DNA of 22,860 bases from a virus. Location: the IMG/VR virus record IMGVR_UViG_3300050002_000040, positions 1 through 22,860 of that record; one strand, written 5' to 3'. Positions within the stretch are counted from its first letter, which is position 1; every line of letters begins with the position of its first letter. The translations under genes were made by a program, and so were the position numbers. Below, piece after piece: positions 1-22,860 of the stretch. The notes under the pieces were generated by a model. The model worked only from the letters and a program-made list of their open reading frames with translations. It ran no database searches and had not been told where the DNA came from.

Positions 1-1
1 G

Positions 2-1432
2 CAAGGGATCAACGCGCGCGCCGCGGGTGCCGTTTGGCCCGGCGCGGGTTCCGACGCGCGCACGCCCGGCGACGCGATCGCCGACGTGTTCGGGCCGCGC
101 CCGTTCGCCGCGCATATCCCGACCGTGGGATACGACTACGACTTTCACCGCGGCGTCGACGTCGACCTTGACGTTGGCGACGTCGTGCGAAGTGTGATCG
201 GCGGCGCGTGCATTCGCGCGAGTCAGTCGCACTTCGGGTGGCAAGTCGCCGGGCAACTCGACTTCTGGAACGAAGTTGATCCCGAGGCAATCCTGACCGC
301 GTCGATCGACACTGGAAACGCCGAACTTGATATCGATATCGACGCGGGCGCGCCCGGGCTGATCCTGTTTCAGAACACGCCGCGGATTGAGCGCGCCGCG
401 CAACCGATCCAGGTTGACGACGACTGGATCATCGAGTTTCAGATCGTCTCGCCGACCGTCGGCACGGCGGGCAACGCGATCGGAATCGCGGTAGTTGACT
501 TTCTCACGAACCAAAACGTTCGGCTTCAAACCGACGGGATCGACATACTCGCAAAAGGCAACGACTCGGGCGGCGCGCTTGCGGGCGGGTCGCTCGGCGA
601 TACCGGTCAAGAGTGGTTTCGGATCGAGCAGAACTCGGGAACGGTCACGTTCCGCACGAGCACCGACGGCGAGTCATGGTCGACGTTTCAAACCGAGACG
701 CCTTCGTGGACGAACACGACGCGCCCGGTTTTCGTGCCGTGGATCTACTACGATTGGCAAGCGTCGGGCGTCGAGTCGTTCCAGGTCAAGCAGTGCAACT
801 ACGTCGACGCGAGCACGATCGGGCGCTTCGGCAATTGGGCGATGGTTTGCGACGGCGACCGCCGCGTTGCGATCATGCACTGTCGCGAGTTGACCCTGGA
901 GAAAGGCGACATCGTCGCGCCCGGCGACCAACTCGGCACGATCGGTCAGACGGGATTCGATACCCGGTCGGGCCGAATCCAGAGCGCTCATGCTCACGTC
1001 GAGTTGTTGCCCGGGAACAGCTACTTTTACGACAACGACGATCCGATCAACCCGCTTGATCCGTCGCTGTTGCCACGCGTCAACGTGAGCAACAACGTCG
1101 CCGCCGTGCTCACCGAAGAAAACGATCCGAATAGCGACGCGAGTTGGCGCCTGGAGATCACGGTCACCCGCGCCGACGAAGATTTCGATTTCAACAGCGT
1201 CACGCTAACGACGACGGGCGCGACGCGAACCGTCAACTTCGATTCACGCGCCGGGCTCGACGCGGATCCCGACGTTCCCGATCATGACGGCGTGTACATT
1301 GTCGCGTCGTCGTTCAACGCGGCGAGCGCGTCGTACGTCGTCGATCTCTACTTCGACAAAGCCGTCCTGACCGGTACGCTTTCGAGTTGGAGCGTCGAAG
1401 ATACCGAAGGGAACACGCTAGCAAGCGGGTAA
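2..1432 (+). CDS. Tail-associated M23 (LytM-like) peptidoglycan endopeptidase, 5' partial
   Basis: The frame is open to the left edge, so the gene starts before the window; a GTG at 86 is only an internal candidate. Numbering from 86, the first M23 half is visible at 1-45: FGPR, then H21-x3-D25, the usual zinc ligands. The second half is at about 238-306: FGNW, a MHC histidine (H265), a VAPGDQLGTIGQTG loop and the A-H-A-H pair at 301-304. All expected metal and catalytic residues are present. Between the halves, about 190 residues form a beta-rich insertion (WFRIEQNSGTVTF and STDGESW stretches) that resembles a concanavalin-like sugar-binding sandwich. The C-terminus (about 330-448) looks like a beta-sandwich. 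M23 enzymes cut peptidoglycan cross-links, and in a tail protein this would help DNA entry. It sits just before other tail genes. The M23 call is firm; the lectin-like role of the insertion is inference. Confidence 0.85.
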   Translation, partial: QGINARAAGAVWPGAGSDARTPGDAIADVFGPRPFAAHIPTVGYDYDFHRGVDVDLDVGDVVRSVIGGACIRASQSHFGWQVAGQLDFWNEVDPEAILTASIDTGNAELDIDIDAGAPGLILFQNTPRIERAAQPIQVDDDWIIEFQIVSPTVGTAGNAIGIAVVDFLTNQNVRLQTDGIDILAKGNDSGGALAGGSLGDTGQEWFRIEQNSGTVTFRTSTDGESWSTFQTETPSWTNTTRPVFVPWIYYDWQASGVESFQVKQCNYVDASTIGRFGNWAMVCDGDRRVAIMHCRELTLEKGDIVAPGDQLGTIGQTGFDTRSGRIQSAHAHVELLPGNSYFYDNDDPINPLDPSLLPRVNVSNNVAAVLTEENDPNSDASWRLEITVTRADEDFDFNSVTLTTTGATRTVNFDSRAGLDADPDVPDHDGVYIVASSFNAASASYVVDLYFDKAVLTGTLSSWSVEDTEGNTLASG

Positions 1433-1435
1433 CGC

Positions 1436-2227
1436 ATGACCGTCGCCTTCACAGCCTACGTTTCAGCCGTGCCAACCGCGGGGCTTACTCCCACGTGGTC
1501 GACGGCATACGACGCGGTAACGGGCGTCGAGCAAACGGTCGGCTTGCCGTCGTTCGACGATCTCGGGTCGGGTCTGTACAGCTTCGAACCGCCGACCGGT
1601 TACGACTTCACCGGGATCATCGATCTAGGCGTGACCGCCGATCCGCGCTACCTCGTGTATCGCGCCGACACTATCGAGACGTTCGGCGCCTTCGATCCGG
1701 ATCCGCTCGCGGGCTTGGCCCCCGGGTTCCTGGTTTACAAAAATCTCGACACAGGCGCGAACGTACTCGCGCCGACGATCACCGAACTCGGGAACGGGCT
1801 GTACAAGTTCGACAAGCCCGCGATCGGCGATCCGCTCGGTGGGATCATCGAGCTTGGCCCGAGCGCGTCGCCCGAGTACCTCAAGTACGACGCGCAAAAC
1901 GTCACGACGCCGGGCGGCGGCGATGGCAACCCGCCGGTACTTACGATCGTTTCACCGGCGGCGGGCGGAACGCTGTTGCCGGGCGGCGCGGTCACGATCG
2001 AAGTGACCGACGTTGACGGAACCGTTTTCGTGGAACTCGCGGTCACGTACCCGGGCGGCGCGACCGAGGTCGTGTTCCGTGACGACGACTATCGGCGACC
2101 ATTCTCCGGAACGCGCGTCGCGATCGCGAACGGCTTTCGCTACGTCGTCAACCGTGACGGCGGGTGGCCGACGGGTAACCCGCGGTTCGAAGTTGCCGCC
2201 GTTGACGCCGGGGGGGCCCGCTTGTGA
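1436..2227 (+). CDS. Phage tail/structural protein with two internal repeats and an Ig-like C-terminus
   Basis: This 263-residue protein starts at ATG 1436, three bases after the previous stop. It contains two related units of about 70-75 residues: the first has DLGSGLYSFEPP followed by GIIDLG, the second has ELGNGLYKFDKP followed by GIIELG, and each ends in YLVY or YLKY. A GGGDGNPP linker follows. The C-terminal part (about 165-263) begins PPVLTIVSPAAGGTL and looks like a bacterial Ig-like or cadherin-like domain. No catalytic motif was seen. Lying between the tail peptidase and a baseplate protein, it is probably a tail-tip or host-contact structural protein. The repeat structure is seen directly; the role is inferred from position. 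Confidence 0.75.
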   Translation: MTVAFTAYVSAVPTAGLTPTWSTAYDAVTGVEQTVGLPSFDDLGSGLYSFEPPTGYDFTGIIDLGVTADPRYLVYRADTIETFGAFDPDPLAGLAPGFLVYKNLDTGANVLAPTITELGNGLYKFDKPAIGDPLGGIIELGPSASPEYLKYDAQNVTTPGGGDGNPPVLTIVSPAAGGTLLPGGAVTIEVTDVDGTVFVELAVTYPGGATEVVFRDDDYRRPFSGTRVAIANGFRYVVNRDGGWPTGNPRFEVAAVDAGGARL

Positions 2228-2865
2228 GCACGTGGTTCTACACAGTCGAGTCGCCGACCGACTCGCCGGGCGCGATCGGTCAACGCACGCCGTCGCAGTA
2301 CGCCCGCGTCATGCGGCATCTATTGCCGCCCGGGCGGCTTTGGAATTTCGATCCCGCCGGGTACTTGATGCGGGTCTTTCTCGCGGCGGGCGACGAGTTG
2401 TCGCGCGTGAGCGGGCGCGTACTCGACTTGCTCGCCGAAGCCGATCCGCGTACGGCAACCGACGCCGAGTTGCTCGGCGACTTCGAGCGGCTTCTAACGC
2501 TCGACGGAACGGGCACCGAGTCGGAGCGACAGAACCGCGTCGTTGCGCGACTCACGCAAGACCGCGGGTTCCGCCCGCAAGACGTTCGGGAAACGCTCGC
2601 GCCGTTGCTCGATCAAGACGTGGTCGACGTCGTGATTATCGAGCGCACGACGATCGCCGCCGCCGTGATCGCGGAGCCGCGCGAGATCTACCGCTACTTC
2701 GTGTATCGCGACCCGCTTGCCGCGGGTACCGCCGACCTCGAAGGCGCGCAAGCCGCCCTCGATTCGCTCGAACACACGCATACCAAAGGGCACGTAATCG
2801 AGTCGCTCGACTTCAAGTGCGACGAAGCAACGTCGCTCTGTGACCGCGACGCGCTAGGAGCATAA
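2224..2865 (+). CDS. YmfQ/DUF2313-family baseplate (tail) protein
   Basis: The GTG start at 2224 overlaps the preceding TGA as GTGA. The 213-residue product has the layout of the YmfQ family, which includes baseplate proteins of contractile and some other tailed phages. LLPPGRLW lies near residue 33, a helical stretch with DELSRVSGRVLDLL follows, and then the aspartate-rich DPRTATDAELLGDFERLL. The middle holds a SERQNRVVARL helix that fits the same family. Members help assemble the baseplate wedge or tail tip. The length is typical of the family. The C-terminus contains two cysteines (CDEATSLC). The neighbours on both sides are tail genes, which supports the call. Confidence 0.85.
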   Translation: MSTWFYTVESPTDSPGAIGQRTPSQYARVMRHLLPPGRLWNFDPAGYLMRVFLAAGDELSRVSGRVLDLLAEADPRTATDAELLGDFERLLTLDGTGTESERQNRVVARLTQDRGFRPQDVRETLAPLLDQDVVDVVIIERTTIAAAVIAEPREIYRYFVYRDPLAAGTADLEGAQAALDSLEHTHTKGHVIESLDFKCDEATSLCDRDALGA

Positions 2866-2869
2866 ACCG

Positions 2870-3403
2870 ATGGCACTTCCACTTTCACGCGACACGAGTT
2901 ACGCGCCCGGGTCGCAGGTTTTTTCGGCCGACCTGAACAACCTGCAAGACTCGATCATCTCGGGCGCGCACGGTCCGAAAGTCGTGCTCGTCGGTCCGCA
3001 ATTGGCAGGTCTCGTGACCGCGACCTACTCGGGCGACTACGTCACGATCGACTCGGATCCAGAGCGCGCCGACTTTCCGATCGTGTTGCCGCAAGGCGCG
3101 ATCCTTGAAGCCGTTACCGTGTTCGGCGAGAACATCGGCGCGCCGACCAATGAGGTCGACGGCACAATCCGCGAGATCGCGTTTTCGAACTACGCGGTAG
3201 CCACGCAAACGTTGAGCACCACGAAGGGCGCGGGCACGAGCAACGGCGAATGGACGCTAGCGTGGACGTCGGCGGATACCGATATTCCGTACACCGTTCC
3301 CGCTTCCGACGTCGCGTACCAAGTGCGGATCCAAACGACGGGCGCCGTCGGCGTGACCGTGCGCGTGTACGGCATGACGTATCAGTACTACGTCCCGGTG
3401 TAG
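2870..3403 (+). CDS. Small phage tail/fibre-like structural protein
   Basis: ATG 2870 lies four bases after the previous stop, preceded by a GGAG-like ribosome site (ctaggagcataaaccg). The 177-residue product begins with PGSQVFSADLNNLQD, an N-terminal style common in small phage tail-fibre or appendage proteins. The rest is rich in Thr, Val and Ala and predicted beta, with no signal peptide and no membrane segment. It ends in an aromatic stretch, YGMTYQYYVPV. It directly follows the YmfQ-like baseplate gene and precedes the lysis cassette, where tail-fibre genes often lie. I do not recognise a specific family. A surface-exposed trimeric or beta-sandwich structural protein is the likely class. 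Confidence 0.72.
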   Translation: MALPLSRDTSYAPGSQVFSADLNNLQDSIISGAHGPKVVLVGPQLAGLVTATYSGDYVTIDSDPERADFPIVLPQGAILEAVTVFGENIGAPTNEVDGTIREIAFSNYAVATQTLSTTKGAGTSNGEWTLAWTSADTDIPYTVPASDVAYQVRIQTTGAVGVTVRVYGMTYQYYVPV

Positions 3404-3410
3404 CGGAACG

Positions 3411-3857
3411 ATGGCCGACGACGACACCGACCTCCGCGCGCGAGTGACCACGCTAGAGCAAGCGGCCGAAGCGATGTCACGCCGGTTCGGCGATCGGCTC
3501 GACGACGGCGCCGAACGCTTCGCGATCCAGCGACGGCAAATCGAGCAAGTCGAAGCCGCGATCGCGCCGAAGCCCGCGGACAAATGGAAGCTAGCGGGCA
3601 TCGTCCTATCGGTCGCGGTTTTGCTTTTCACGTGGGTTTGGCAAGCCGCACGCTACCCCGATCGATCCGAGTACACGGCGCTCGCCACGCGAATGGAATC
3701 GTTCGTCTCGGATATGCGCGGTCGCTTCGACTTGCTTCGCGAAGCGGGCCTCCGAAGCGAGTCGGACATAGCGCTGTTGCGCAATCGGATCGGCGGTCTT
3801 GATCGGTCGCTTGCTCGAATCGAAGAAGAGATCCGTAGCGCAAGGGCGCGCGATTGA
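3411..3857 (+). CDS. Single-TM coiled-coil membrane protein at the start of the lysis cassette
   Basis: ATG 3411 follows the tail gene by seven bases. The 148-residue protein has a charged helical N-terminus (about 1-58, rich in Arg, Glu and Gln). One hydrophobic segment follows at about 62-78 (LAGIVLSVAVLLFTWVW), then a long C-terminal helix with heptad-like spacing (about 88-145, ending ARIEEEIRSARARD). No signal peptide is seen. This topology resembles XhlA-like and other small membrane-anchored coiled-coil proteins found in phage lysis regions, but no family signature is certain. It overlaps the next gene (TTGA), so the two are probably translationally coupled. Confidence 0.75.
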   Translation: MADDDTDLRARVTTLEQAAEAMSRRFGDRLDDGAERFAIQRRQIEQVEAAIAPKPADKWKLAGIVLSVAVLLFTWVWQAARYPDRSEYTALATRMESFVSDMRGRFDLLREAGLRSESDIALLRNRIGGLDRSLARIEEEIRSARARD

Positions 3858-4162
3858 GCGACCGGGCGAACCGCCCGACGATTCAGAACGTCGTCGCGGA
3901 GGCGACTGTGTTGCGACGGGTGCGCGAAGTCGAGGTCGGCGCGCACGAGGCGTACCGACGCTTGCGGCGCAAGGTCGAGTTTCGGTCGCTCATGTTCGCC
4001 GTATTGCTGACCGCCGCGGTCACGGGTGCGATCGGCTTTTCGGCCGCGCGGTCGCTTGACCGAATCACGTCGGCGCAAGTGCGAACCATGTTCGACGAGC
4101 ACGCCGCGGTCGCCCGCGAGTTGCGACGGCGGATCGAGTTGCTCGAAAGCGGGCGCAAGTGA
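3854..4162 (+). CDS. Small single-TM coiled-coil protein of the lysis cassette
   Basis: The proposed start is TTG 3854, which overlaps the upstream TGA in a TTGA arrangement like many other junctions in this window. The 102-residue product has a basic helical N-terminus and one clear membrane segment at about 46-63 (LMFAVLLTAAVTGAIGFSA). A charged helix ending RELRRRIELLESGRK completes it. Its plan (basic N-terminus, TM, short helix) matches its upstream neighbour and the downstream spanin-like protein, giving three similar membrane proteins in a row. The function is not recognised; a holin partner or antiholin is possible. The TTG start is supported by spacing rather than by a strong ribosome-binding site. 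Confidence 0.7.
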   Translation: MSDRANRPTIQNVVAEATVLRRVREVEVGAHEAYRRLRRKVEFRSLMFAVLLTAAVTGAIGFSAARSLDRITSAQVRTMFDEHAAVARELRRRIELLESGRK

Positions 4163-4563
4163 ACGCCGCCGCGATCGTGGCCCTCGTGGCGTTGTCGACG
4201 TCGGGCGTCGTGCTCGCCGTGCTCGCCGTGCGCTTGTCGAGCATGGCGCGCGAACTCGCCAACGTGCGCGAGTCGCTCGGGCGCGCGTCCGAAGAGCGAA
4301 CCGAGTTGCGCGCCGCGCTCGTCGAAGCGGGTCGCGCGAACGCTGTACTTGAGCGGCAACTGTTGATCCTTCGCGAGCGTCACGCTGAACGGCTACGCTT
4401 TCTTCGTGCCCAACTCGAAGAGTGCACCGATCCGGGGGTTCGCGGTCGCATTGCTGTTGACGGGATCCGTCGCATCTTGCGGTCGGTCGAAACCACCCGT
4501 GAACTACCCGCGAGCCCGAATCGATTGCTTACCGATCGAGACGACGCCCCTACCGACGGTTGA
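4159..4563 (+). CDS. Inner-membrane spanin-like protein (Rz-like)
   Basis: GTG 4159 overlaps the preceding TGA (GTGA). The 134-residue protein has an N-terminal membrane anchor (about 4-24, IVALVALSTSGVVLAVLAV) followed by a long coiled coil (about 28-90) rich in Arg, Glu and Leu. This is the classic i-spanin layout: N-in, C-out, spanning the periplasm. The decisive context is a lipoprotein gene that starts inside its 3' part in a different frame (4406-4738), as in Rz/Rz1 pairs. I-spanins bind the outer-membrane partner and fuse the two membranes in the last step of lysis of Gram-negative hosts. Sequence similarity to Rz itself was not tested; the call rests on topology and gene overlap. Confidence 0.75.
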   Translation: MNAAAIVALVALSTSGVVLAVLAVRLSSMARELANVRESLGRASEERTELRAALVEAGRANAVLERQLLILRERHAERLRFLRAQLEECTDPGVRGRIAVDGIRRILRSVETTRELPASPNRLLTDRDDAPTDG

Positions 4564-4738
4564 TCCCGACGGGTGGATCGCGGCGGGCGAGCCCGGGTGC
4601 GAAGTCGATCCCGATCGCGTCGCCGCTTGCGTTACGCCCGCCGCCGCGATCCAGTTGCACGAGTTGCTCGACTCGTTGACCGCGTTCCGCGCCGACGCGC
4701 TCGCGCTTTGCTCGAAGGGAGTCGCCGATGCGAAGTAG
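4406..4738 (+). CDS. Outer-membrane spanin-like lipoprotein (Rz1-like)
   Basis: This gene begins at GTG 4406 inside the i-spanin gene, in the +1 frame, and overlaps it by 158 bases. The 110-residue product has a lipoprotein signal: basic start, hydrophobic core AVALLLTG, and lipobox V-A-S-C with the acylated cysteine at residue 25. The first mature residues are CGRSKPPVNYP, proline-containing as in many o-spanins. No membrane segment follows. Five further cysteines lie in the mature part, so disulfide bonds are possible. Overlapping i-spanin/o-spanin gene pairs are typical of phages of Gram-negative bacteria. The call rests on the lipobox and the overlapping arrangement. Confidence 0.77.
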   Translation: MPNSKSAPIRGFAVALLLTGSVASCGRSKPPVNYPRARIDCLPIETTPLPTVDPDGWIAAGEPGCEVDPDRVAACVTPAAAIQLHELLDSLTAFRADALALCSKGVADAK

Positions 4739-5252
4739 ACTCAAAGCCGCCCTCCTGGCGGCAACTCTAGTAGCCACGCCCGCGGCGGTCGCCGCGTCGC
4801 CGGGAACGCCCCCCAGTGCCGTCCTATACGCGCCCGCGCACGCGGGCCCGAGCGTAACGCCCGACCGACCCGGGCCCGTTACAGGCGAACACAGCGCGCC
4901 TGACGTGGGCGCTACGCCCGCCGACGATTGGCGCGGCAACTCGGCGGCGCTTTACGACGCGATCCTGTCCGGCCGTTGGCTCGCCGCCGTTGCCGCCGCG
5001 CTGTTGCTCGGCGTCTATACCGTTCGGCGGATCGCGCTTCGCCGCGTCGCATGGTTTCAAACGCGGCTCGGTGGTTGGTTGATCAACTTCGGTCTCGCAA
5101 CGACCGCCGCGGTTGCCGTCGGGATGCGCGCCGGTTCGCTCGGACTGGCGACCGTGCTCGATGCGATCGCGCTCGGCGTTTGCTCGGCGGGCGCATACCA
5201 AGCCGTTCGCGATGCGCGGCGACCAGTGGCGAAACTCGACGACGTTGGTTAA
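4728..5252 (+). CDS. Holin-like multi-TM membrane protein with signal peptide
   Basis: ATG 4728 overlaps the end of the spanin gene, with a GAAGGGA ribosome site seven bases upstream. The 174-residue product starts with a signal peptide-like segment (LKAALLAATLVATPAAVAA, residues 5-23), followed by a Pro/Gly-rich linker. Three hydrophobic segments follow at about 84-98, 115-132 and 137-157, and the tail is charged. Basic residues (RRIALRR) separate the first two segments. Small multi-TM proteins next to spanins and upstream of the endolysin are usually holins, which form the inner-membrane lesion that times lysis. The long N-terminal extension with a signal peptide is unusual for a holin, so another membrane role remains possible. 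Confidence 0.72.
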   Translation: MRSRLKAALLAATLVATPAAVAASPGTPPSAVLYAPAHAGPSVTPDRPGPVTGEHSAPDVGATPADDWRGNSAALYDAILSGRWLAAVAAALLLGVYTVRRIALRRVAWFQTRLGGWLINFGLATTAAVAVGMRAGSLGLATVLDAIALGVCSAGAYQAVRDARRPVAKLDDVG

Positions 5253-5297
5253 GGTAACTCCCACCCGGTCGCGCGGGGTTTCTTCGGTCACTCTGGT

Positions 5298-5330
5298 TCC
5301 CTTTGGTTGGATTGGCGTTCGAAAAAGGGA
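5298..5330. terminator. Weak inverted repeat in the 90-base gap between convergent genes
   Basis: The space from 5253 to 5342 lies between the rightward holin-like gene and the small leftward gene. It contains TCCCTTT (5298-5304) and AAAGGGA (5324-5330), an inverted repeat with a 19-base loop. Nearby is a short GC stem with a TGTTTT tail (5337-5356). Neither is a strong intrinsic terminator. They are offered only as the best candidates for ending the convergent transcripts. Confidence 0.22.
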
Positions 5331-5342
5331 TGCGGGCCCGCG

Positions 5343-5546
5343 CTACCGGGTGTTTTCTGTTTCGGGATCGCGATCGTCGTCGTTGAACGCGATGCGCGCG
5401 CCGACCGGGCCCGACTGGAACGAAACCGAAAGGCGCCCCTTGCCGTCGCTAAGTTCGAGCGACACGCCGGTGACGACGCCCGCGCGTAGTTGCTCGGCGA
5501 TCCATTCCAACGTGCGCGCGAGCGCTTCGACGCCGTCAACGTGCAT
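5343..5546 (-). CDS. Small leftward gene inside the lysis region, unknown function
   Basis: I place the start at ATG 5546, giving 67 residues. The frame stays open further upstream, but that extension is Cys/Pro-rich and overlaps the endolysin gene, so it was not used. The product has a helical first half (VEALARTLEWIAEQL) and a beta-like second half (VSLELSDGKGRLSVSF) with an acidic end. Composition is normal for a real protein, whereas the competing frames here are Arg/Ser-rich shadows. No ribosome-binding site is seen. A weak promoter-like pair (TTGCGG, 17 bases, CGTTAT) lies just upstream on the same strand. It is the only leftward gene between the holin-like and endolysin genes. I do not recognise a family. 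Confidence 0.6.
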   Translation of the reverse strand: MHVDGVEALARTLEWIAEQLRAGVVTGVSLELSDGKGRLSVSFQSGPVGARIAFNDDDRDPETENTR

Positions 5547-5576
5547 ACAGCAACAGCATAACGGCGCGGGTGGGTA

Positions 5577-6266
5577 GTGACCGCAACCAAACCCACAGAG
5601 TGCAGTTGCTTCGGCTTCCCGCTTCGCAAGGGCCATGTCCGAACTCTAATCCGTCACTGGGAACGAACGCACGGATTAGAGCGCAAGGGGTTCTCTTCCG
5701 CCGAAGTGGTCGCTTCGATCGAAGCCGCACAAAACGCCGAACACGCCGAGCGAAACCTGTTCAAGGTCGCAACGGAGATCGCGCTCAACAACCGCGGCAA
5801 CGGCGAAAGCGAATCCAACAACCGCGGCGCCGACCTGTACCTATGGCGGCAAAACGACGGAACGGGTTTGCCCTGGGATCTGGCGGGCCCGTGGTGCGCG
5901 TCGTTCGCGTCGTTCTGTTTAGTGCAAGCCGCGAAGCGACTCGACGACTACGCCTTGCCGTTCAAGACGTCGCGCGGCGCAAAAACGCTGACCGAGCGCG
6001 TCGCCGAAGTCGGGCGCGAATGCGTCAACCCGGAACCGTACGCGCTCATCTGCTGGCATCGGTCGTCACTCGGATCCGCGAGTCGCAAGGGGCATGTCGG
6101 CTTTATCGTCTCGTACGACCGCGCGACCGATACGTTGATCACGGTCGACGGAAACAAAAACCGCCGCGGTCATAGACTCGCGACGGTTGAAACGTTCGAT
6201 CACCCGAACGGACGGTGGCGGGATAAGCTTTACATGATGGCGACTATTGCGCCGCGCTCGCAATAG
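5577..6266 (+). CDS. Endolysin, CHAP/NlpC-P60-like cysteine peptidase or amidase
   Basis: The start is GTG 5577, preceded by GGGTGGG, and the protein has 229 residues. The catalytic region is recognisable: NNRGADLYLW (81-90), PWCASFASFC with the candidate nucleophile C107, and KGHVGFIVSY with the candidate histidine H173, followed by VDGNKN (190-195) as the likely third polar residue. This matches the pattern of phage lysins related to TIGR02594/CHAP enzymes, which cut peptide or amide bonds in peptidoglycan. The N-terminus (C9, C11, H20, H27, H32) could bind zinc or form a wall-binding module. No signal peptide is seen, so export would need the holin-like protein encoded just upstream. Its 3' end overlaps the convergent gene by 23 bases. 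Confidence 0.83.
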   Translation: MTATKPTECSCFGFPLRKGHVRTLIRHWERTHGLERKGFSSAEVVASIEAAQNAEHAERNLFKVATEIALNNRGNGESESNNRGADLYLWRQNDGTGLPWDLAGPWCASFASFCLVQAAKRLDDYALPFKTSRGAKTLTERVAEVGRECVNPEPYALICWHRSSLGSASRKGHVGFIVSYDRATDTLITVDGNKNRRGHRLATVETFDHPNGRWRDKLYMMATIAPRSQ

Positions 6267-6873
6267 CGCCGTCGTAAATTTCATATTCGCCGCCGTCGTC
6301 GAACCCATACCGATCATCCCAGCCGGCATGGTCGGTGCGCCGCGTTTGCGGCAGTGCGGCGCGCATGTATACCGCGCTTTGATCGAGTGTCTCGCGGTCA
6401 CAATCGTGGTACCCGTTTCGCCACCCGTCGCGAATGTCGGGGCAATTCGACTGGATTATGTCGGCCGCGCTATAGGTCGCGGCCGAGCACGAGCAGACGA
6501 CGTCAAGCGATGCGATCCCGTATTGCCGTAGCAGCGCTTCGCACGTTTCGCGGTCGCGCCAGCACTGTTGTGCATAGCTCACGTATTCGACCATTTCGCG
6601 CGACATCGAAAACCATTCGCGCCCCATTTTGTCGGCACTTCGAACGTCGCCATAGTCGATCCGCGACGCCGAAAACTGAAGGTGCATCTCATACTCGCTT
6701 GCGTGCGTAACGCACAAGAGCCGGAGCGGGTACGCGGAACCGGTGGCGAGTTCGCGGATCCGGGTTCGCGGAGTTTTTGCAGTGCCGATCTTTACGCGGT
6801 CGGTTCCGACCGCCCAAATGAAATACGTTCCAGAACCCACGGACTTTCGCGATTTTTCCGGCGCGCGCGGCAT
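6244..6873 (-). CDS. GIY-YIG (T5orf172/MUG113-type) nuclease-domain protein
   Basis: ATG 6873 is chosen because it lies four bases after the upstream stop; translation further upstream is an Arg/Ser-rich shadow of the neighbouring gene. The 209-residue product has the T5orf172 form of the GIY-YIG fold. YFIWA (17-21) replaces GIY and VKIG (27-30) replaces YIG. Arginines in TPRTRIREL (34-42), the Glu/His pair in EYEMH (60-64) and the closing REWFSM (85-90) follow. The domain cuts DNA in some members and is only inferred by homology in others. About 115 C-terminal residues are Cys- and acid-rich and unassigned. It is the last gene of the leftward recombination operon. A role in recombination, exclusion or homing is possible. 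Confidence 0.8.
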   Translation of the reverse strand: MPRAPEKSRKSVGSGTYFIWAVGTDRVKIGTAKTPRTRIRELATGSAYPLRLLCVTHASEYEMHLQFSASRIDYGDVRSADKMGREWFSMSREMVEYVSYAQQCWRDRETCEALLRQYGIASLDVVCSCSAATYSAADIIQSNCPDIRDGWRNGYHDCDRETLDQSAVYMRAALPQTRRTDHAGWDDRYGFDDGGEYEIYDGAIASAAQ

Positions 6874-6877
6874 CGCG

Positions 6878-7390
6878 CTAGTCACTCCATTCGCGCGTAC
6901 GCAACTCGCGCACCGCGTAGCTGATATGAACGCCGTCGGCGTCGACGTTGATCTGAATTTGCGCGAGATTGTCGATCGACTTCGCGATCTCGCGAATGGT
7001 CGCGAGCTTTCGGTCGAGCGTTGCCGCCGCGAGTATGTCGAGCGCTTTGCTCGTGCTCGACGGGGGAAGCGTTTTCGGGTGCGCGGGCTTCGCTTCTTCG
7101 ACGATCTCAAGTTGCGGCGGCAAGCGTCGCGTTGCCCGCTTGTCGCGAACGCTCTTGATCACTTCGTTCGGGCCAACGGGTGGGAGGCGTTGTTCGTCGC
7201 GCGCTTCGTTGCGCAAGTCGCCGAGTCGGTCGGTCGCCATTGCCTTGCCGTACTTGCGCACGAGCAGTTTTCGGGCGGCGTTGATCGTGCCGTTCGGGTT
7301 GTTGCGAAAAAACTCCAAGGCGTCGCGCTTGCGGGCTTCGTACGTGCCCGGGTGGCGCGCGAACTTCGCGTTCGGATCGCGCGGGTTCAT
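6878..7390 (-). CDS. Unknown protein between RecT and the GIY-YIG gene
   Basis: ATG 7390 overlaps the end of the RecT gene as ATGA, which fixes the start better than the much longer Arg-rich upstream frame. The 170-residue product starts MNPRDPNAKFARHPGTYEAR. It has a helical region resembling a small helix-turn-helix (INAARKLLVRKYGKAMATDRL), then a Pro/Lys-rich linker, a Leu-rich helix with LDRKLATIREIAKSIDNLA, and a beta-like end (IQINVDADGVHISYAV). No catalytic motif was seen. Its place inside an operon with RecT and YqaJ suggests an accessory recombination or DNA-binding role. I do not recognise a family. Confidence 0.75.
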   Translation of the reverse strand: MNPRDPNAKFARHPGTYEARKRDALEFFRNNPNGTINAARKLLVRKYGKAMATDRLGDLRNEARDEQRLPPVGPNEVIKSVRDKRATRRLPPQLEIVEEAKPAHPKTLPPSSTSKALDILAAATLDRKLATIREIAKSIDNLAQIQINVDADGVHISYAVRELRTREWSD

Positions 7391-8283
7391 TTCTCGACCT
7401 CGGGATCGTGCGGCGCGTTCCATGGGTCGATCGTGTCGTCGGGTGCCGCTACGGTGCGCGCGTCGTTGTCGTCGTCGAGCACGGGCTTCCGTTTCCGCTT
7501 TACTTTCTTCTTGAGCCGGTCGACGCCGCCGTCGTCGTCGTTCGGCACGTCGACCACGTCGGGTTCGACGCCGCGCGCTCGAAACGCTTCGCGGTACGCG
7601 CTCACGTCGCCGCCTTCGCCCGCGGCGTCGAGTTGAAAGCCGAACGCCGAGCGCTCGCCGAGCGGCAAGCGCTTGCCGAGTCGCCGAATGGGCGACTTGC
7701 GGAACATTTGATCCTCCCACAATTGCCACGGCGAATCGCTTCGCGTGGTTTTCGCGGTCGACTTGATCTTGTCGAGGTCGGCGCGCGACATGAACTCGAC
7801 GTCAAGCTCACCGGAGGCGAACATCGCGAACGCGTACGCGCCGACGATCTCGCCTCGGTCCTCGCCCAAGAAGGGCCGGTGACGGACGCGCGCATCGGTG
7901 CCGATGTCGACGTCGAAGTCGTCGCGAAAATAGACGACGTTCGCCGATACCTTCGACACGCCCGGCGTTTCGCGCGCGAGCCGAAGGATCCCGCGATAGC
8001 CGAGTTGAAACGTCGCGGTGTTTCCGTAGGGGACAATGAACGCCTCCTGACGGATGCCGCCGGGCTCAAGCCCTACCTGGGCGCACGCGATCAACGCCAA
8101 ATAGATCGACTCGGGCGAGCACTTTTGAAGTTGCTTGCTCTTTTGGAAATCCATTAGCGCGAAGCGAATCAGCGCGGCGGGATCGATCCGATTCTGCGCC
8201 CATTGTTCGAGCGCGACGCGCTTACCGGCGAGGTACGTTGCGAGTTGGCGGGTCGGGTGATTCTGGCGTTCGAGTTGAGTCAT
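7387..8283 (-). CDS. recT: RecT-family single-strand annealing protein
   Basis: The 298-residue product carries the RecT signature in order: LALIACAQVGLEPGG, then EAFIVPYGNTATFQLGYRG, RLARETPGVSKV, the NVVYFRDDF segment, GEIVGAYAFAMF, and the closing PWQLWEDQMFRKSPIRRLGK with LP. RecT proteins coat single-stranded DNA, anneal complementary strands and work with a 5'-3' exonuclease. That partner (YqaJ) lies immediately upstream and overlaps by ATGA. The C-terminus, after about residue 205, is an acidic and Lys-rich tail that is probably flexible. The family assignment is firm. The pair would process double-strand ends during phage replication or recombination. Confidence 0.93.
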   Translation of the reverse strand: MTQLERQNHPTRQLATYLAGKRVALEQWAQNRIDPAALIRFALMDFQKSKQLQKCSPESIYLALIACAQVGLEPGGIRQEAFIVPYGNTATFQLGYRGILRLARETPGVSKVSANVVYFRDDFDVDIGTDARVRHRPFLGEDRGEIVGAYAFAMFASGELDVEFMSRADLDKIKSTAKTTRSDSPWQLWEDQMFRKSPIRRLGKRLPLGERSAFGFQLDAAGEGGDVSAYREAFRARGVEPDVVDVPNDDDGGVDRLKKKVKRKRKPVLDDDNDARTVAAPDDTIDPWNAPHDPEVEK

Positions 8284-9332
8284 GGTCGGTCCGTAATGAG
8301 TGACAAGAGGTCAAGCGGCGCATCTTCGCGCCATGCGCGCGGCGCGTTGAAGCGTCGCGGCGGTTGCGTTCGCGAATCTTCGACGAACGATTCGGCCAAA
8401 AGCGGGTCAATACCGGCGTGCGCGGCAAGCGCGTTGAACGCGTCGCGGTACGAAGGGCGCCCGCGCTTGTCATGCTTGAAGCCGAACGTTCCCTGGTCGG
8501 TTTCGACGGCGTCGTTGTCGCCGATCGCGAGCATGAGTTTTTGCGTCAGGCGCGACTCTTCGAGGTCGAGCGCTTTGCGGGCGGCGCGGGCGGCGCGAAG
8601 CCGCAAAGCGAGTTGCTCGACCTCGGGGTTTGACTTCGCAACGAGCCCGGTCGTCTTGCGCGCGCGCCCTTTAACGTATTTCGTGAACGCGTCGGATCCG
8701 TCGGGTTCGGGCGGCGACTTCGCTTGTACCTTGAACCAAAACGCTTCGGCTTGTTCGAGCAAGTACGCCTCAAGCTCGCGATCGCGTTCCACGTGAAACT
8801 CGCGATAGTCGCTCGTGTTAAGCAACGCGGCAACGTCGCACCGGTTGACGTCGAGCCCGCTCATGTACCAGGCAACCTGACACAAAATATGCTCGGGCAA
8901 TTCGTCGGAACCGTCGTCGCCGAAACCGCGGAACGTACCGAGCCCCGCGGTCTTGATCTCAAGAATCCGATCGACAAGTTCGCGCGGCGGCGGCGGCGCG
9001 CCGCGATGGTAAGGCTCGAACGCGCCGGGCTCCAACACAACCCGGTCGAGCGAAAACAAGTGCCACGATCGGGTCGGGTGTTCGACGGTATCGAACGGGC
9101 CAACGACGGTCTTGTCGTCGTGTCGTCGCTGATACTCGTCGGCGACGATCGGCTCAAGCAACGCGCCGAATCGTTGCGAGTCGGTCGGCGAGTCGGTCGG
9201 CGGTTCGCCTTCGGCGATCTTTTCGAGGTACACGTCGATCGGTCGGCGGAACGGCGACAGGCCACAAATCGCGGCGACGTCGCTTCCACCGATGCCGCGA
9301 CGCCGATAGCGTCGTTGGTCTTGCGTCAGCAT
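8280..9332 (-). CDS. YqaJ-family phage exonuclease (recombinase partner)
   Basis: ATG 9332 is preferred; the frame extends upstream only as an Arg-rich shadow. The 350-residue product starts with the family hallmark GIGGSDVAAICGLSPF (13-28). Next come LLEP (58-61) with E60, SLDR with D96, EIK with E125 and K127, and QVAWYMSG with Q152. These fit the PD-(D/E)XK nuclease core of lambda-exonuclease-like YqaJ proteins, which resect one strand at double-strand ends. The second half is helical (RLRAARAARKALDLEES). It overlaps RecT by four bases, a classic exonuclease/annealase pair. The active site appears complete. Confidence 0.93.
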   Translation of the reverse strand: MLTQDQRRYRRRGIGGSDVAAICGLSPFRRPIDVYLEKIAEGEPPTDSPTDSQRFGALLEPIVADEYQRRHDDKTVVGPFDTVEHPTRSWHLFSLDRVVLEPGAFEPYHRGAPPPPRELVDRILEIKTAGLGTFRGFGDDGSDELPEHILCQVAWYMSGLDVNRCDVAALLNTSDYREFHVERDRELEAYLLEQAEAFWFKVQAKSPPEPDGSDAFTKYVKGRARKTTGLVAKSNPEVEQLALRLRAARAARKALDLEESRLTQKLMLAIGDNDAVETDQGTFGFKHDKRGRPSYRDAFNALAAHAGIDPLLAESFVEDSRTQPPRRFNAPRAWREDAPLDLLSLITDRP

Positions 9333-16166: not shown

Positions 16167-16437
16167 CGACCAAGAAGCCGCCCGTATCGCCGATCTCGTG
16201 GTTCGGCGCCTTCGGGAATCGGGGTGTGATATCATCGTCGACGGGAACGCCAACCCAACAACCGAAAAGGAAGAACCAAAATGCCAATCCAACCGAAGCG
16301 AGACCGAGCCCTCGGGCCTTATCAGCAACGCCGAAAATGGCGAGTCGTGTACGTTGTCGACGGAACGCGAACGCCTAAGAACTTTGCGACAAAAGGCGCG
16401 GCGATCGACGCGATCGTCGCGTTCAACAAAGCAGTGA
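16156..16437 (+). CDS. Small protein overlapping the integrase start
   Basis: ATG 16156 overlaps the previous stop region, and the frame runs 157 bases into the integrase gene in a different frame. It would encode 93 residues. The first 32 residues (ISDQEAARIADLVVRRL and the following acidic part) look like a real protein. The part overlapping the integrase is Ser/Arg-rich and could be a shadow. A small excisionase would often sit here, but no excisionase fold is evident. Start and identity are both tentative. Confidence 0.45.
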   Translation: MAISDQEAARIADLVVRRLRESGCDIIVDGNANPTTEKEEPKCQSNRSETEPSGLISNAENGESCTLSTERERLRTLRQKARRSTRSSRSTKQ

Positions 16438-17321
16438 GTGACGAAGATCGATCGCTTTCGTCGGCACTCGATCGCTACGCCGAGTATCTGGACGACAAAG
16501 GCAACGCCGCGAAGAGCAACGCGACGACGCTCGCGCGCTTGCGCGCCTTCTTTGCGCCGTTCAAGCACGAGCCGATCGACACGATCACCGAACAAAAGGC
16601 GGCGAAGATCTACCAGTCATATCGCAAGCGCAAAACGCGCACCGGGCGACCGCCGACCGCGGCGACGCATCGCGGCGTGCTCAAGCAAGCGCGCACGTTC
16701 GCGGCATGGTGCCGTGACAAAGGCTGGTGTCGCGGCAACCCGTTTGCGGCCGTCGAGTTGATGGGCAAGCCGACGAAGGGCAAGCCGTCGTTGCGAATCA
16801 ACGAAGCGCGCAAGCTCTACCAAGCTTGCATTACGGACGGCTCCGACGGCGCGTTCGCGGTCGCGACCGCGTTGCTCATGGGAACCCGCGCGACCGAGAC
16901 TGTTACGATCACGGCGCGCGACGTTGACGACGGCGGGAACGTGCTCTGGGTGGAAGGCGAGGGCACGAAGCACGCCGACGGGCCGCGCGCGCTTGCCTTG
17001 CCGGATACCGCGGTGCGCGATTGGATCGCCCGACGCGCGGCGTACGCGAAGGGCGGGCGCCTATGGCCGGGCAAGGATCGAACATGGCTCTACCGCGAAG
17101 CGCGGCGCCTGTCGAAGGCGGCTGGGATACCGCCGGTCGGCGCGCAACAACTTCGAGTGACCCATTCGACGCTCACCAAAGAGCACGGAATAACCGCCGC
17201 CGTCGTCGCCGACCAACTCGGTCATACCGAAGGCGTCAACCGCGACCACTACAGTCGCCCGGGCGTCGAAGAAGCCGCCAACGCCCGGCGCGTGTTCGGC
17301 GTGATCAACGGCGGCGCATAG
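16281..17321 (+). CDS. int: Tyrosine-family site-specific integrase
   Basis: ATG 16281 is preceded by an AAGGAAGAA ribosome-binding site. The 346-residue product has a small N-terminal beta domain (about 12-48, RKWRVVYVVDGTRTPKNFAT) like arm-site binding domains. A SAM-like core-binding domain (about 57-150) and the catalytic domain follow. Candidate active-site residues are R203 (GTRATE), K230, R292 (in QQLR), H315 (LGHT) and Y324 (DHYSRP). The box II histidine before the second arginine is replaced by Gln (Q289), a tolerated variation. It integrates and, with a directionality factor, excises the genome at attP, which lies just downstream. The arm-binding domain matches the four arm-like repeats there. 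Confidence 0.93.
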   Translation: MPIQPKRDRALGPYQQRRKWRVVYVVDGTRTPKNFATKGAAIDAIVAFNKAVSDEDRSLSSALDRYAEYLDDKGNAAKSNATTLARLRAFFAPFKHEPIDTITEQKAAKIYQSYRKRKTRTGRPPTAATHRGVLKQARTFAAWCRDKGWCRGNPFAAVELMGKPTKGKPSLRINEARKLYQACITDGSDGAFAVATALLMGTRATETVTITARDVDDGGNVLWVEGEGTKHADGPRALALPDTAVRDWIARRAAYAKGGRLWPGKDRTWLYREARRLSKAAGIPPVGAQQLRVTHSTLTKEHGITAAVVADQLGHTEGVNRDHYSRPGVEEAANARRVFGVINGGA

Positions 17322-17339
17322 CGAATCCACGCCCCCCCC

Positions 17340-17377
17340 AAAATGCCCCGCGTCGGTCGCCCGGCGCGGGGCATTTT
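17340..17377. terminator. Strong intrinsic terminator after the integrase gene
   Basis: AAAATGCCCCGCG (17340-17352) pairs perfectly with CGCGGGGCATTTT (17365-17377) across a 12-base loop, and a T-run forms the end of the stem. The symmetrical A- and T-tracts mean it can work in both directions. It isolates the early operon from attP and the unknown operon beyond. Confidence 0.87.
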
Positions 17378-17431
17378 AGTGGGCGGTCGCCGCCGCGCTC
17401 GGATCGTACGCCGTCGGCGTCTTGCCCGTCG

Positions 17432-17459
17432 AGTTAGGGTCCCGGCTGGGAACCTAACT
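17432..17459. repeat. Inverted repeat between terminator and attP
   Basis: AGTTAGGGTCCC (17432-17443) faces GGGAACCTAACT (17448-17459) over a four-base loop, with one mismatch. There is no U-rich tail, so it is not a plain terminator. It ends in sequence that reads TTGACA on the plus strand, but no matching -10 follows. It could be a binding site for a dimeric protein near attP, or a structured RNA end. Confidence 0.5.
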
Positions 17460-17593
17460 TGACAAAGCCGAGCGGGCATGACCCCCAGCCAAAACGAGCG
17501 CGCGTACGACGTTTCCGCGGGGCTTTTTGTCGCCAGCGAATCGCGGTTTCGACCGTCGTCGACACTAGACCGCGCCCGCGCTAGACCGAAAAA

Positions 17594-17823
17594 GCGGGGA
17601 ACGATTCAGGGTCGAACCGTTCCCCGCTTCCGATCGCTCGCTAACCAAAATGCAAAAAAGCGAACGATCTCGCCGTGCGAAGGGCGGGAATCGAACCCGC
17701 ACGAATTGCTTCACCAGATCCTTAGTCTGGTTTTGACCTTGAAATCATTCGGGTAACGCCCGTTTACCGTTCCCCGCTCATGAGCAAGTCGCCGCCTTCG
17801 TTGCGTTCCGCGGGGAACGGTTC
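17594..17823. other. attP: attP region with four arm-type repeats around a tRNA core
   Basis: The 751-base non-coding gap between the integrase and the next gene (17322-18072) holds this site. A motif close to GAACCGTTCCCCGC occurs four times: inverted at 17594-17607 (one base changed), direct at 17614-17627, direct at 17764-17777 (starts TTAC), and inverted at 17810-17823. Two copies lie on each side of a tRNA-Leu 3' fragment (17676-17730). This matches integrase arm sites flanking a core at a tRNA gene. Because both arms are present, the site appears to be an intact attP rather than attL or attR. Confidence 0.72.
17676..17730 (-). other. 3' fragment of a tRNA-Leu gene (attP core identity block)
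   Basis: Read on the minus strand, CCAGA-CTAAGGA-TCTGG (17730-17714) forms an anticodon stem-loop with loop anticodon AAG (Leu). GAA-GCAA-TTC is a variable-arm hairpin, as in long-variable-arm tRNAs. GCGGG-TTCGATT-CCCGC is a T-arm, and CCTTCGC plus A is the 3' acceptor strand. No D-arm or matching GCGAAGG 5' acceptor strand exists further 5', and no CCA follows. It is therefore not a working tRNA. Phages using tRNA genes as attB carry exactly such a 3' piece so that integration restores the host tRNA. Confidence 0.75.
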
Positions 17824-17858: not shown

Positions 17859-17887
17859 TCAACCGTCCGGGAAACCCGGACGGTTGA
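17859..17887. repeat. Perfect 13-base hairpin right of attP
   Basis: TCAACCGTCCGGG (17859-17871) and CCCGGACGGTTGA (17875-17887) pair perfectly around an AAA loop. No T-run follows, so classic termination is doubtful. It lies between the attP arm and the gene at 18073. The remaining stretch to 18072 shows no gene that I can support. Confidence 0.6.
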
Positions 17888-20736: not shown

Positions 20737-21354
20737 GTGGGCACGTACAACCGGCTGTCGAAGGCGGAAAAGCAACGAGTCGCGCGGGCGCGGTTGAGCG
20801 AACCGCCGCTAGCGTGCCCTCAGTGCGCTACGAAAGTACCGGTTGGCCAACTCGCGGCGCATATCCGCGAGCGTTGCCCGGGCAAGCCCGAACCCACGTC
20901 GGCGAGTCGCTGGATCACGCGCCGCGAAATGGAACGACTCGGCGTCGATACCGTGACCGCCGACCGCTGGATCGCCTCGGGCCGGATTCGAAGCCGCCCG
21001 GGCGACGAAGGCGACCGCTTCCTTCTTCGCGACGTCGACCTCTTGGTTAGCTTGGCCGAAGTCGGCCCGGCGAATCCGTCGAGCAAAGCCACACGCAAAG
21101 CCGCGCGCAAAGCGCCAACCAAAACGTTGACGACTACGCGCCGACGTGCTCACGCTAGACGCATGGCCAACGACACACTGTCGCCCGAGGTCGCGAAGCG
21201 CTTGCGAGCGCTCACGGAAGCGATCGGCGTTGAGCGGGCTTCGCGCCGCTTCGATATCCCGGCGGGCACGCTACGGCGCGCGCTCGCGGGCGAGTCGCTA
21301 CGGCGCGGAACGCGCACGCTAATCGAAACCGAGATCGCCAAGGTCGGCAAGTGA
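20737..21354 (+). CDS. Zinc-finger and HTH DNA-binding protein
   Basis: GTG 20737 has no ribosome site and lies just after a promoter. The 205-residue product has C27, C30, H42 and C47 (CPQC and HIRERC), a C2HC-type zinc finger. A MerR/excisionase-like winged helix follows at about 58-105 (RWITRREMERLGVDTVTADR). A Lys/Arg-rich linker (115-142) leads to a second HTH region (150-200, VAKRLRALTEAIGVERASRR then IPAGTLRRALAG). It leads the last operon. A transcription regulator or packaging-related DNA-binding protein is plausible; the target is unknown. Confidence 0.8.
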   Translation: MGTYNRLSKAEKQRVARARLSEPPLACPQCATKVPVGQLAAHIRERCPGKPEPTSASRWITRREMERLGVDTVTADRWIASGRIRSRPGDEGDRFLLRDVDLLVSLAEVGPANPSSKATRKAARKAPTKTLTTTRRRAHARRMANDTLSPEVAKRLRALTEAIGVERASRRFDIPAGTLRRALAGESLRRGTRTLIETEIAKVGK

Positions 21355-21557: not shown

Positions 21558-21742
21558 GCGGATTTCTCAACGAAGCAACGGCGATCTTCGACGTCAAGCA
21601 AAGCGCGGCCGTACCGCTCGCCAACGCCAACGGCAAAGCCGTTATTGCGTGGCGCGTCGGGCGTATTCTGTACATTCACCCCGACAACTGGGGGCGCTTC
21701 GCTCGCATGTTCACCGAGTCGGGCGGATTGTTCTCGCTATGA
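21554..21742 (+). CDS. Small unknown protein upstream of the gpZ-like gene
   Basis: ATG 21554 overlaps the previous stop (ATGA) and gives 62 residues. The sequence is balanced, with beta-like KAVIAWRVGRILYIHPDNW and a short helix (WGRFARMF). It overlaps the next gene as ATGA. Some phages carry small head-tail connector or neck proteins here, but no signature is seen. Confidence 0.68.
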   Translation: MSGFLNEATAIFDVKQSAAVPLANANGKAVIAWRVGRILYIHPDNWGRFARMFTESGGLFSL

Positions 21743-22290
21743 TCGAAGCGAAGCTAGACGCCAGCCAACTACGCGACGCGCGAAAAGCGCTCAAGCCGGG
21801 CCCGCACAAGAGGGCCATGCGCAAGGCGGGTTCCGAAGCGGTTCGCAAAATGAAAACGGCGGCGAGTCGGCGAATCCGCGAAGAGAAAAACATTAAGGAC
21901 CGAGCGATCAAGAAAGCGATGGTTGGCGTTCGCCCGGTCGGCGCGAAGTCGGTCGAGCGCATGGGATGGGGCATCCGCTTTCGCGATATCAACGTGCCGC
22001 TTCTAGACTACGGCGCGCGCCAAACCAAAAAAGGCGTAACGGTCGCCGTGAACAAAGGCGGCGCGCGAACGCTCATACAATCCGCGTTCAAAGCGACGAT
22101 GCCGCGAACCGGGCACACTGGGATCTTCAAACGCACGAGCAACCTACGCTTGCCGATTCGCGAGCTATTCGGAAGCCGCGCCGTCGACCAACTTCTGAAA
22201 CCCGGCGAAGCCGACAAGATCCTGATCCACGGTCGCGACGCGTTTCGCAAAGCGTTCGCCCGATTGCTGCCATGGGAGCGTAGCCGGTGA
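21739..22290 (+). CDS. Phage minor tail protein Z (gpZ)-like
   Basis: ATG 21739 overlaps the previous stop (ATGA). The 183-residue product has a basic helical N-terminal half (RKALKPGPHKRAMRKAGSEA, then EEKNIKDRAIKKAM). The distinctive later part reads LDYGARQTKKGVTVAVNKGG, then IQSAFKATM, HTGIFKRTSNLRLPIRELFG. This order, a GARQT-like loop followed by an aF-x-R and LPI-x-ELFG end, matches the minor tail protein Z family of lambda-like phages, which is involved in tail completion. Family membership is likely. The odd point is the location: it lies on the far side of attP from the other tail genes, so structural genes probably continue to the right. Confidence 0.74.
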   Translation: MIEAKLDASQLRDARKALKPGPHKRAMRKAGSEAVRKMKTAASRRIREEKNIKDRAIKKAMVGVRPVGAKSVERMGWGIRFRDINVPLLDYGARQTKKGVTVAVNKGGARTLIQSAFKATMPRTGHTGIFKRTSNLRLPIRELFGSRAVDQLLKPGEADKILIHGRDAFRKAFARLLPWERSR

Positions 22291-22517: not shown

Positions 22518-22860
22518 CCGAATCCCCCCCTATGGCCTCAGGCGAGCAACAGCGTTTCCCCCATGGGCGCACGTGGCCAACCAGCCAAACGAGCCAACGA
22601 GCCAACGGGCCAACGGGCACCGACGAGCAGTGCAGAGCAGAGCAGAGCAACACAGCAGAGCAGAGCAGAGCAAAGCAACAGAGCAGAGCCCTTCAAGAAG
22701 GGCCCTGGGGGGCTGTGTCGCGGCGATTTAGGGTGCCCCCCCTACGCCGAAGCCACGGCGAGGGCTTTCGCCCGTACGCGCGATTCCAGGGCGTATCCGG
22801 TGGGGGGGCCCGGTTTGGGTCCTCCCCAGGGTATGCCAGCGTACGGGTGCGGAACGCCGC
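22514..22860 (+). CDS. Doubtful open frame to the right edge
   Basis: GTG 22514 overlaps the previous stop (GTGA), and the frame stays open to the end of the window (115 codons). Its translation is dominated by the repeat tract (Gln, Ser, Arg and Ala) and then Gly/Arg/Pro-rich sequence with no domain pattern. The overlap pattern argues for a gene, the composition against it. I regard it as probably non-coding. Confidence 0.22.
   Translation, partial: MTESPPMASGEQQRFPHGRTWPTSQTSQRANGPTGTDEQCRAEQSNTAEQSRAKQQSRALQEGPWGAVSRRFRVPPLRRSHGEGFRPYARFQGVSGGGARFGSSPGYASVRVRNA
22576..22689. repeat. Tandem GCCAAC-type and AGCAG-type repeats
   Basis: Five tandem units of about eight bases (GCCAACCA, GCCAAACGA, GCCAACGA, GCCAACGG, GCCAACGG) run at 22576-22616. 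From 22627 to 22689 the sequence is a run of GCAGA/AGCAG units. A hairpin GCCCTT-CAAG-AAGGGC follows (22688-22703), and a GGGGGGC/GCCCCCC pair at 22707-22741. Base composition differs clearly from the coding DNA. The tract could be a packaging (cos or pac) or terminase-binding region, which is inference. Confidence 0.6.

Follow-up and report, generated by a model that had tools for sequence, protein, structure and literature searches.

A tRNA-Leu 3′ half flanked by four repeats as the probable intact attP of an uncultivated tailed phage

A tRNA fragment that adjoins an integrase gene is often the attR junction of an integrated element. Such a fragment, with an AAG anticodon, lies next to an integrase gene in the linear and incomplete IMG/VR virus record IMGVR_UViG_3300050002_000040, all 22,860 bp of which were analysed (the window). 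The question raised by this locus is whether it is a junction with a chromosome or the attachment site of the phage itself. An initial annotation had proposed an intact attP beside an integrase; this proposal was upheld by the family matches of the integrase, by the presence of a tRNA 3′ half on its own, and by the occurrence of one motif and of phage genes on both flanks. Positions 17594-17823 very probably constitute an intact attP belonging to a temperate tailed phage, which would be used by an arm-binding integrase with strand exchange at the anticodon loop of a tRNA-Leu gene.

The tRNA-Leu core and the adjoining integrase

The minus strand of positions 17676-17730 reads CCAGA-CTAAGGA-TCTGG-TGAAGCAATTCGT-GCGGG-TTCGATT-CCCGC-CCTTCGC-A, which is the 3′ half of a type II (leucine-like) tRNA. 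It begins at the anticodon stem, covers tRNA positions 27-73, encodes no CCA, and would serve as the attP common core. The length of exactly 55 nt given in the initial annotation was confirmed by reading the sequence; over these 55 nt the anticodon stem, the T stem and the acceptor strand are intact. The anticodon AAG occupies positions 17721-17723, with the wobble base A34 at 17723. No complete tRNA was detected in the window by ARAGORN, the Rfam search returned no match, and neither the acceptor 5′ strand nor the D arm of a tRNA-Leu was seen at 17731-17800. A 5′ half at higher coordinates, which according to the initial annotation would speak against an attP, was looked for and none lies beyond 17731. 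Directly after the tRNA 3′ end, a terminator scan and folding located a short hairpin followed by T6 (17654..17674, minus strand), which is likely to be a tRNA terminator supplied by the phage.

When an att site lies within a tRNA gene, its 7-bp overlap usually coincides with the anticodon loop, on either side of which stand the two halves of the palindromic stem (PMC8371274). The anticodon stem-loop CCAGA-CTAAGGA-TCTGG (17714..17730, minus strand) fits this plan, CCAGA and TCTGG being the putative core-type sites and CTAAGGA the putative 7-bp overlap; the crossover would then take place around the anticodon loop.

The integrase gene (16281..17321, plus strand) specifies a 346-residue protein of the tyrosine family and ends 273 bp from the attP site. 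The protein matched PF00589 (1.6e-8, above the cut-off) and the phrog_1 integrase family (1.3e-36 over residues 17-332), and the catalytic R..K..QxxR..H..Y motifs could all be located, the first His of the HxxR box being replaced by Gln; it carries a tyrosine recombinase catalytic domain. The closest solved protein by sequence is lambda Int, residues 70-233 of which aligned weakly (E 0.012) with residues 53-226 of the integrase, while XerA, which has no arm domain, aligned from residue 65 onwards. Both alignments leave some 50-64 extra N-terminal residues ahead of the core-binding domain. A single-sequence structure prediction was uninformative (pLDDT 36) and was discarded. The initial annotation had assigned the integrase a likely arm-binding domain; an N-terminal stretch placed as in lambda Int is indeed present, but no domain model matched it, and it is by position that it is likely to be an arm-binding domain. 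Close relatives of the integrase were found neither in IMG/VR nor in phage or plasmid collections, and a search of 294 Planctomycetota genomes returned only distant recombinases, the best of them 33% identical over part of the protein.

Besides the repeats described below, the stretch between the integrase gene and the next gene (which probably starts at ATG 18073) contains three more strong hairpins, at 17334-17383, 17428-17463 and 17859-17887, with sequences unrelated to the repeat motif. The first, just downstream of the integrase gene, has 23-nt arms, a folding energy of –43.3 kcal/mol and A-rich and T-rich ends, which make it terminator-like on both strands. No relatives of the neighbouring gene 17920 were found in IMG/VR.

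The four repeats around the core

Two putative arm-type sites lie to the left of the core: an outer one, GAATCGTTCCCCGC (17594..17607, minus strand), with one mismatch to GAACCGTTCCCCGC, and an inner one that is an exact copy of GAACCGTTCCCCGC (17614..17627, plus strand). To the right, an inner site, TTACCGTTCCCCGC (17764..17777, plus strand), differs from the same motif at two positions, while the outer one (17810..17823, minus strand) is again an exact copy and forms an inverted repeat with 17757-17777. The four copies of a 14-base motif reported in the initial annotation, two on each side of the tRNA piece, are thus present with 0-2 mismatches, and they are unique in the record: no further copies were found in the 22,860 bp at two or fewer mismatches, and the matches seen elsewhere at three mismatches are background. 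When 11-mers were grouped allowing one mismatch, a family of four members was observed, whereas no family in 150 dinucleotide-shuffled versions of these 230 bp had more than three. Some tiles elsewhere in the window yield families of four as well, owing to simple or coding repeats; the argument for arm sites therefore rests on the uniqueness of the motif and its placement, and not on family size alone. Measured from the centre of the anticodon loop (17722), the copies are placed at about –122, –102, +48 and +94 bp, and their orientations are –,+ on the left and +,– on the right. Each pair is therefore internally inverted, and the two sides do not mirror each other about the core, so the symmetrical arms of the initial annotation had to be given up.

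The left pair forms a hairpin (17592-17629) whose minus-strand fold of –36.1 kcal/mol ends in TTTTT and is terminator-like, and the right pair forms an inverted repeat of 21 nt whose loop is 32 nt long. Since both pairs are inverted repeats as well, and the left one resembles a terminator, binding of the integrase to the repeats can only be presumed. A rather unlikely alternative keeps the tRNA fragment as the att core but takes the four repeats for a pair of hairpins that act as transcription terminators or regulators and not as arm sites for the integrase. The energy of the left hairpin, its T run on the minus strand and the inverted repeat on the right are what such elements would show, and further hairpins lie in the same intergenic region (17428-17463 and 17859-17887). 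These, however, differ in sequence, whereas a single sequence is used here four times and nowhere else, with a pair of copies to either side of the core and at distances that suit arm sites; in addition, a 32-nt loop is atypical of an intrinsic terminator. The preferred reading of the repeats as arm-type sites can coexist with a terminator role, and either the hairpin of the left pair or the short T6 hairpin could terminate transcription of the rebuilt tRNA. The surroundings of the core showed no IHF consensus; the host may use other bending proteins.

The wobble base, the host gene and the state of integration

The initial annotation had considered the AAG anticodon unusual for bacteria, which agrees with the literature: bacterial tRNA-Leu(AAG) has been reported almost exclusively from Bacilli, with some cases in Mycoplasma and Prochlorococcus (PMC13249217). 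A GTDB-wide pattern scan in which base 34 was left open turned up four tRNA genes that have the right half of this anticodon arm, along with a similar T arm and acceptor, and all four are tRNA-Leu(UAG). Samples of Planctomycetota and Methylomirabilota genomes, searched beyond the GTDB-wide scans, yielded two further genes, both with T34 (the other matches had already been counted). All six bacterial tRNA genes found with the anticodon arm of the fragment are therefore tRNA-Leu(UAG) with T34, while the A34 form was present in none of 392 Planctomycetota genomes. Neither a host tRNA-Leu with AAG nor any host tRNA gene that matches the fragment emerged from the GTDB-wide scans or the two samples; the best genomic matches, the tRNA-Leu(UAG) genes of four genomes, were 84-86% identical over query positions 16-70/71 and all differ at base 34. 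Searches of IMG/VR with exact and relaxed patterns gave no match to the tRNA fragment, and nothing closely related to the attP turned up in IMG/VR or in phage or plasmid collections. The A34 pattern matched five IMG/VR records (one of 21.7 kb and four large ones of 197-364 kb), in each case a complete tRNA-Leu(AAG) within a tRNA cluster, and these were set aside as unrelated to the attP.

Leucine codons in the genes of the window are CTC-rich and CTG-poor (CTC 39%, CTT 16%, CTG 12%), while the proline and alanine families prefer G-ending codons, unlike leucine. This usage would fit a tRNA with AAG or GAG, but CTC is high in other GC-rich phages too and the usage was not taken as support.

The simplest readings of A34 are either an unsampled host with a rare tRNA-Leu(AAG) or a tolerated attP-attB mismatch at the wobble base; recombination is usually hampered when the overlap contains mismatches, but certain integrases accept them (PMC10865867). 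That the phage integrates into a tRNA-Leu(UAG) gene of its host in spite of differing from it at base 34, which would rebuild the tRNA with an AAG anticodon and change leucine decoding in the lysogen, is judged very unlikely. The fragment could also be slightly decayed. That it is a decayed or non-functional leftover, at which the phage no longer integrates, is equally improbable: its A34 contrasts with the T found at this position in all six similar genomic tRNA genes, and a matching host gene was not found, but the anticodon stem, T stem and acceptor strand have all been kept across the 55 nt, and the integrase is an open frame of 346 residues.

The genes around the site bear on its state of integration. 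On the left are those for RecT, YqaJ, DnaB, methylases, a RusA-like resolvase, a lysis gene and a baseplate protein. On the right is a gene whose product weakly matches an excisionase/transcriptional regulator family (20737..21354, plus strand; phrog_66, 1.2e-5), a candidate directionality factor, and a tail-completion or neck protein gene (21739..22290, plus strand; phrog_27, 1.7e-17). The neck protein is 37% identical to a protein of Rhizobium phage PPF1 and is also related to one of Paenibacillus phage Lily; its presence identifies the right flank as phage DNA, and the phage-like genes that the initial annotation placed on both sides are thus there. With phage genes and the same 14-nt motif on both flanks, and the tRNA 5′ half absent, the site is best taken as an intact attP and not as an attL or attR. 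That it is one of the latter, with chromosomal DNA on one side, is scarcely credible: fragments beside integrases are frequently attR, but no tRNA 5′ half is present, the arm motif is the same on both sides when the integrated state would leave a chromosomal side devoid of arm sites, and phage genes, including the right-hand neck protein gene, lie on both sides. A junction between two different prophages in tandem was likewise rejected, since their arm sequences should differ, yet the motif is the same on both flanks.

The same virus is assembled in a second IMG/VR record, 3300050175_000081, which is 100% identical over positions 1-9316 of the window and extends some 2.6 kb further left; the overlap ends short of the attP. 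The best matches of the phage proteins were to actinophages, Rhizobium phages and Paenibacillus phages at 30-45% identity, which was not decisive for assigning a host. The right end of the window (22520-22860) includes AGAGCAGAGC-type simple repeats and has no clear gene.

Known attachment sites and a proposed mechanism

Lambda-type integrases bridge arm-type and core-type sites in an attP of about 240 bp (PMC4880445). The site described here, with 230 bp, is similar in size to that of lambda (about 240 bp; PMC8371274, PMC4880445), and is also similar in having arm-type sites (here putative) on both sides and an integrase with an N-terminal extension before the core-binding and catalytic domains. 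Unlike in lambda, the core lies in a tRNA gene, an IHF consensus was not seen, and the four putative arm sites have another sequence, each pair being inverted within itself. In the attP of mycobacteriophage CrimD (cluster K1), two pairs of short repeats flank a core at the 3′-end of a tRNA/tmRNA gene, and a stem-loop terminator is predicted within the site (PMC3203893). The CrimD core, however, is part of tmRNA, close to the T stem, the CrimD attP is 5′ of int, and the inversion is between the two pairs and not within each. A tRNA-Leu 3′ sequence is present in the attP of mycobacteriophage Omega and of the Oenococcus oeni IntB, IntD and IntF prophages (PMC10865867, PMC8074189), and in the Oenococcus phages the core is likewise flanked by repeats; these have other integrases and other hosts, Omega uses tRNA-Leu(CAA), and the core of O. 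oeni IntF stops short of the anticodon loop. Fionnbharth and Gaia, which show tRNA-dependent lysogeny, also have a tyrosine integrase aimed at the anticodon region of a tRNA and pairs of putative arm-type sites (PMC10865867), but their common core is of 8-10 bp and the whole tRNA is supplied by the phage. Such a lifestyle was rejected here, given the 55-nt 3′ half in place of a core of ∼10 bp; no tRNA gene, of the same isotype or any other, was seen in the incomplete record.

In the mechanism that we propose, the N-terminal domain of the integrase would bind the four 14-bp arm-type sites, while its core-binding and catalytic domains would bind the inverted repeat of the anticodon stem at the core-type sites CCAGA and TCTGG. 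Strands would be exchanged around the 7-bp anticodon loop with a matching site in a host tRNA-Leu gene. The 3′ half of the host gene would be replaced by the phage copy, which would restore the tRNA and bring its own terminator-like hairpin. The direction of the reaction may be controlled by the excisionase-like protein.

The anatomy of the site is best read as that of an ordinary lambda-type attP, routine apart from A34. Such an attP marks this uncultivated phage as temperate and reveals the kind of host gene that it uses. The AAG anticodon provides a handle: it may point to a host lineage, so far unsampled, that possesses a tRNA-Leu(AAG), or to a wobble mismatch that would need to be tolerated or would change a host tRNA. 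If the mismatch is tolerated, lysogeny could rewrite the anticodon of the host.
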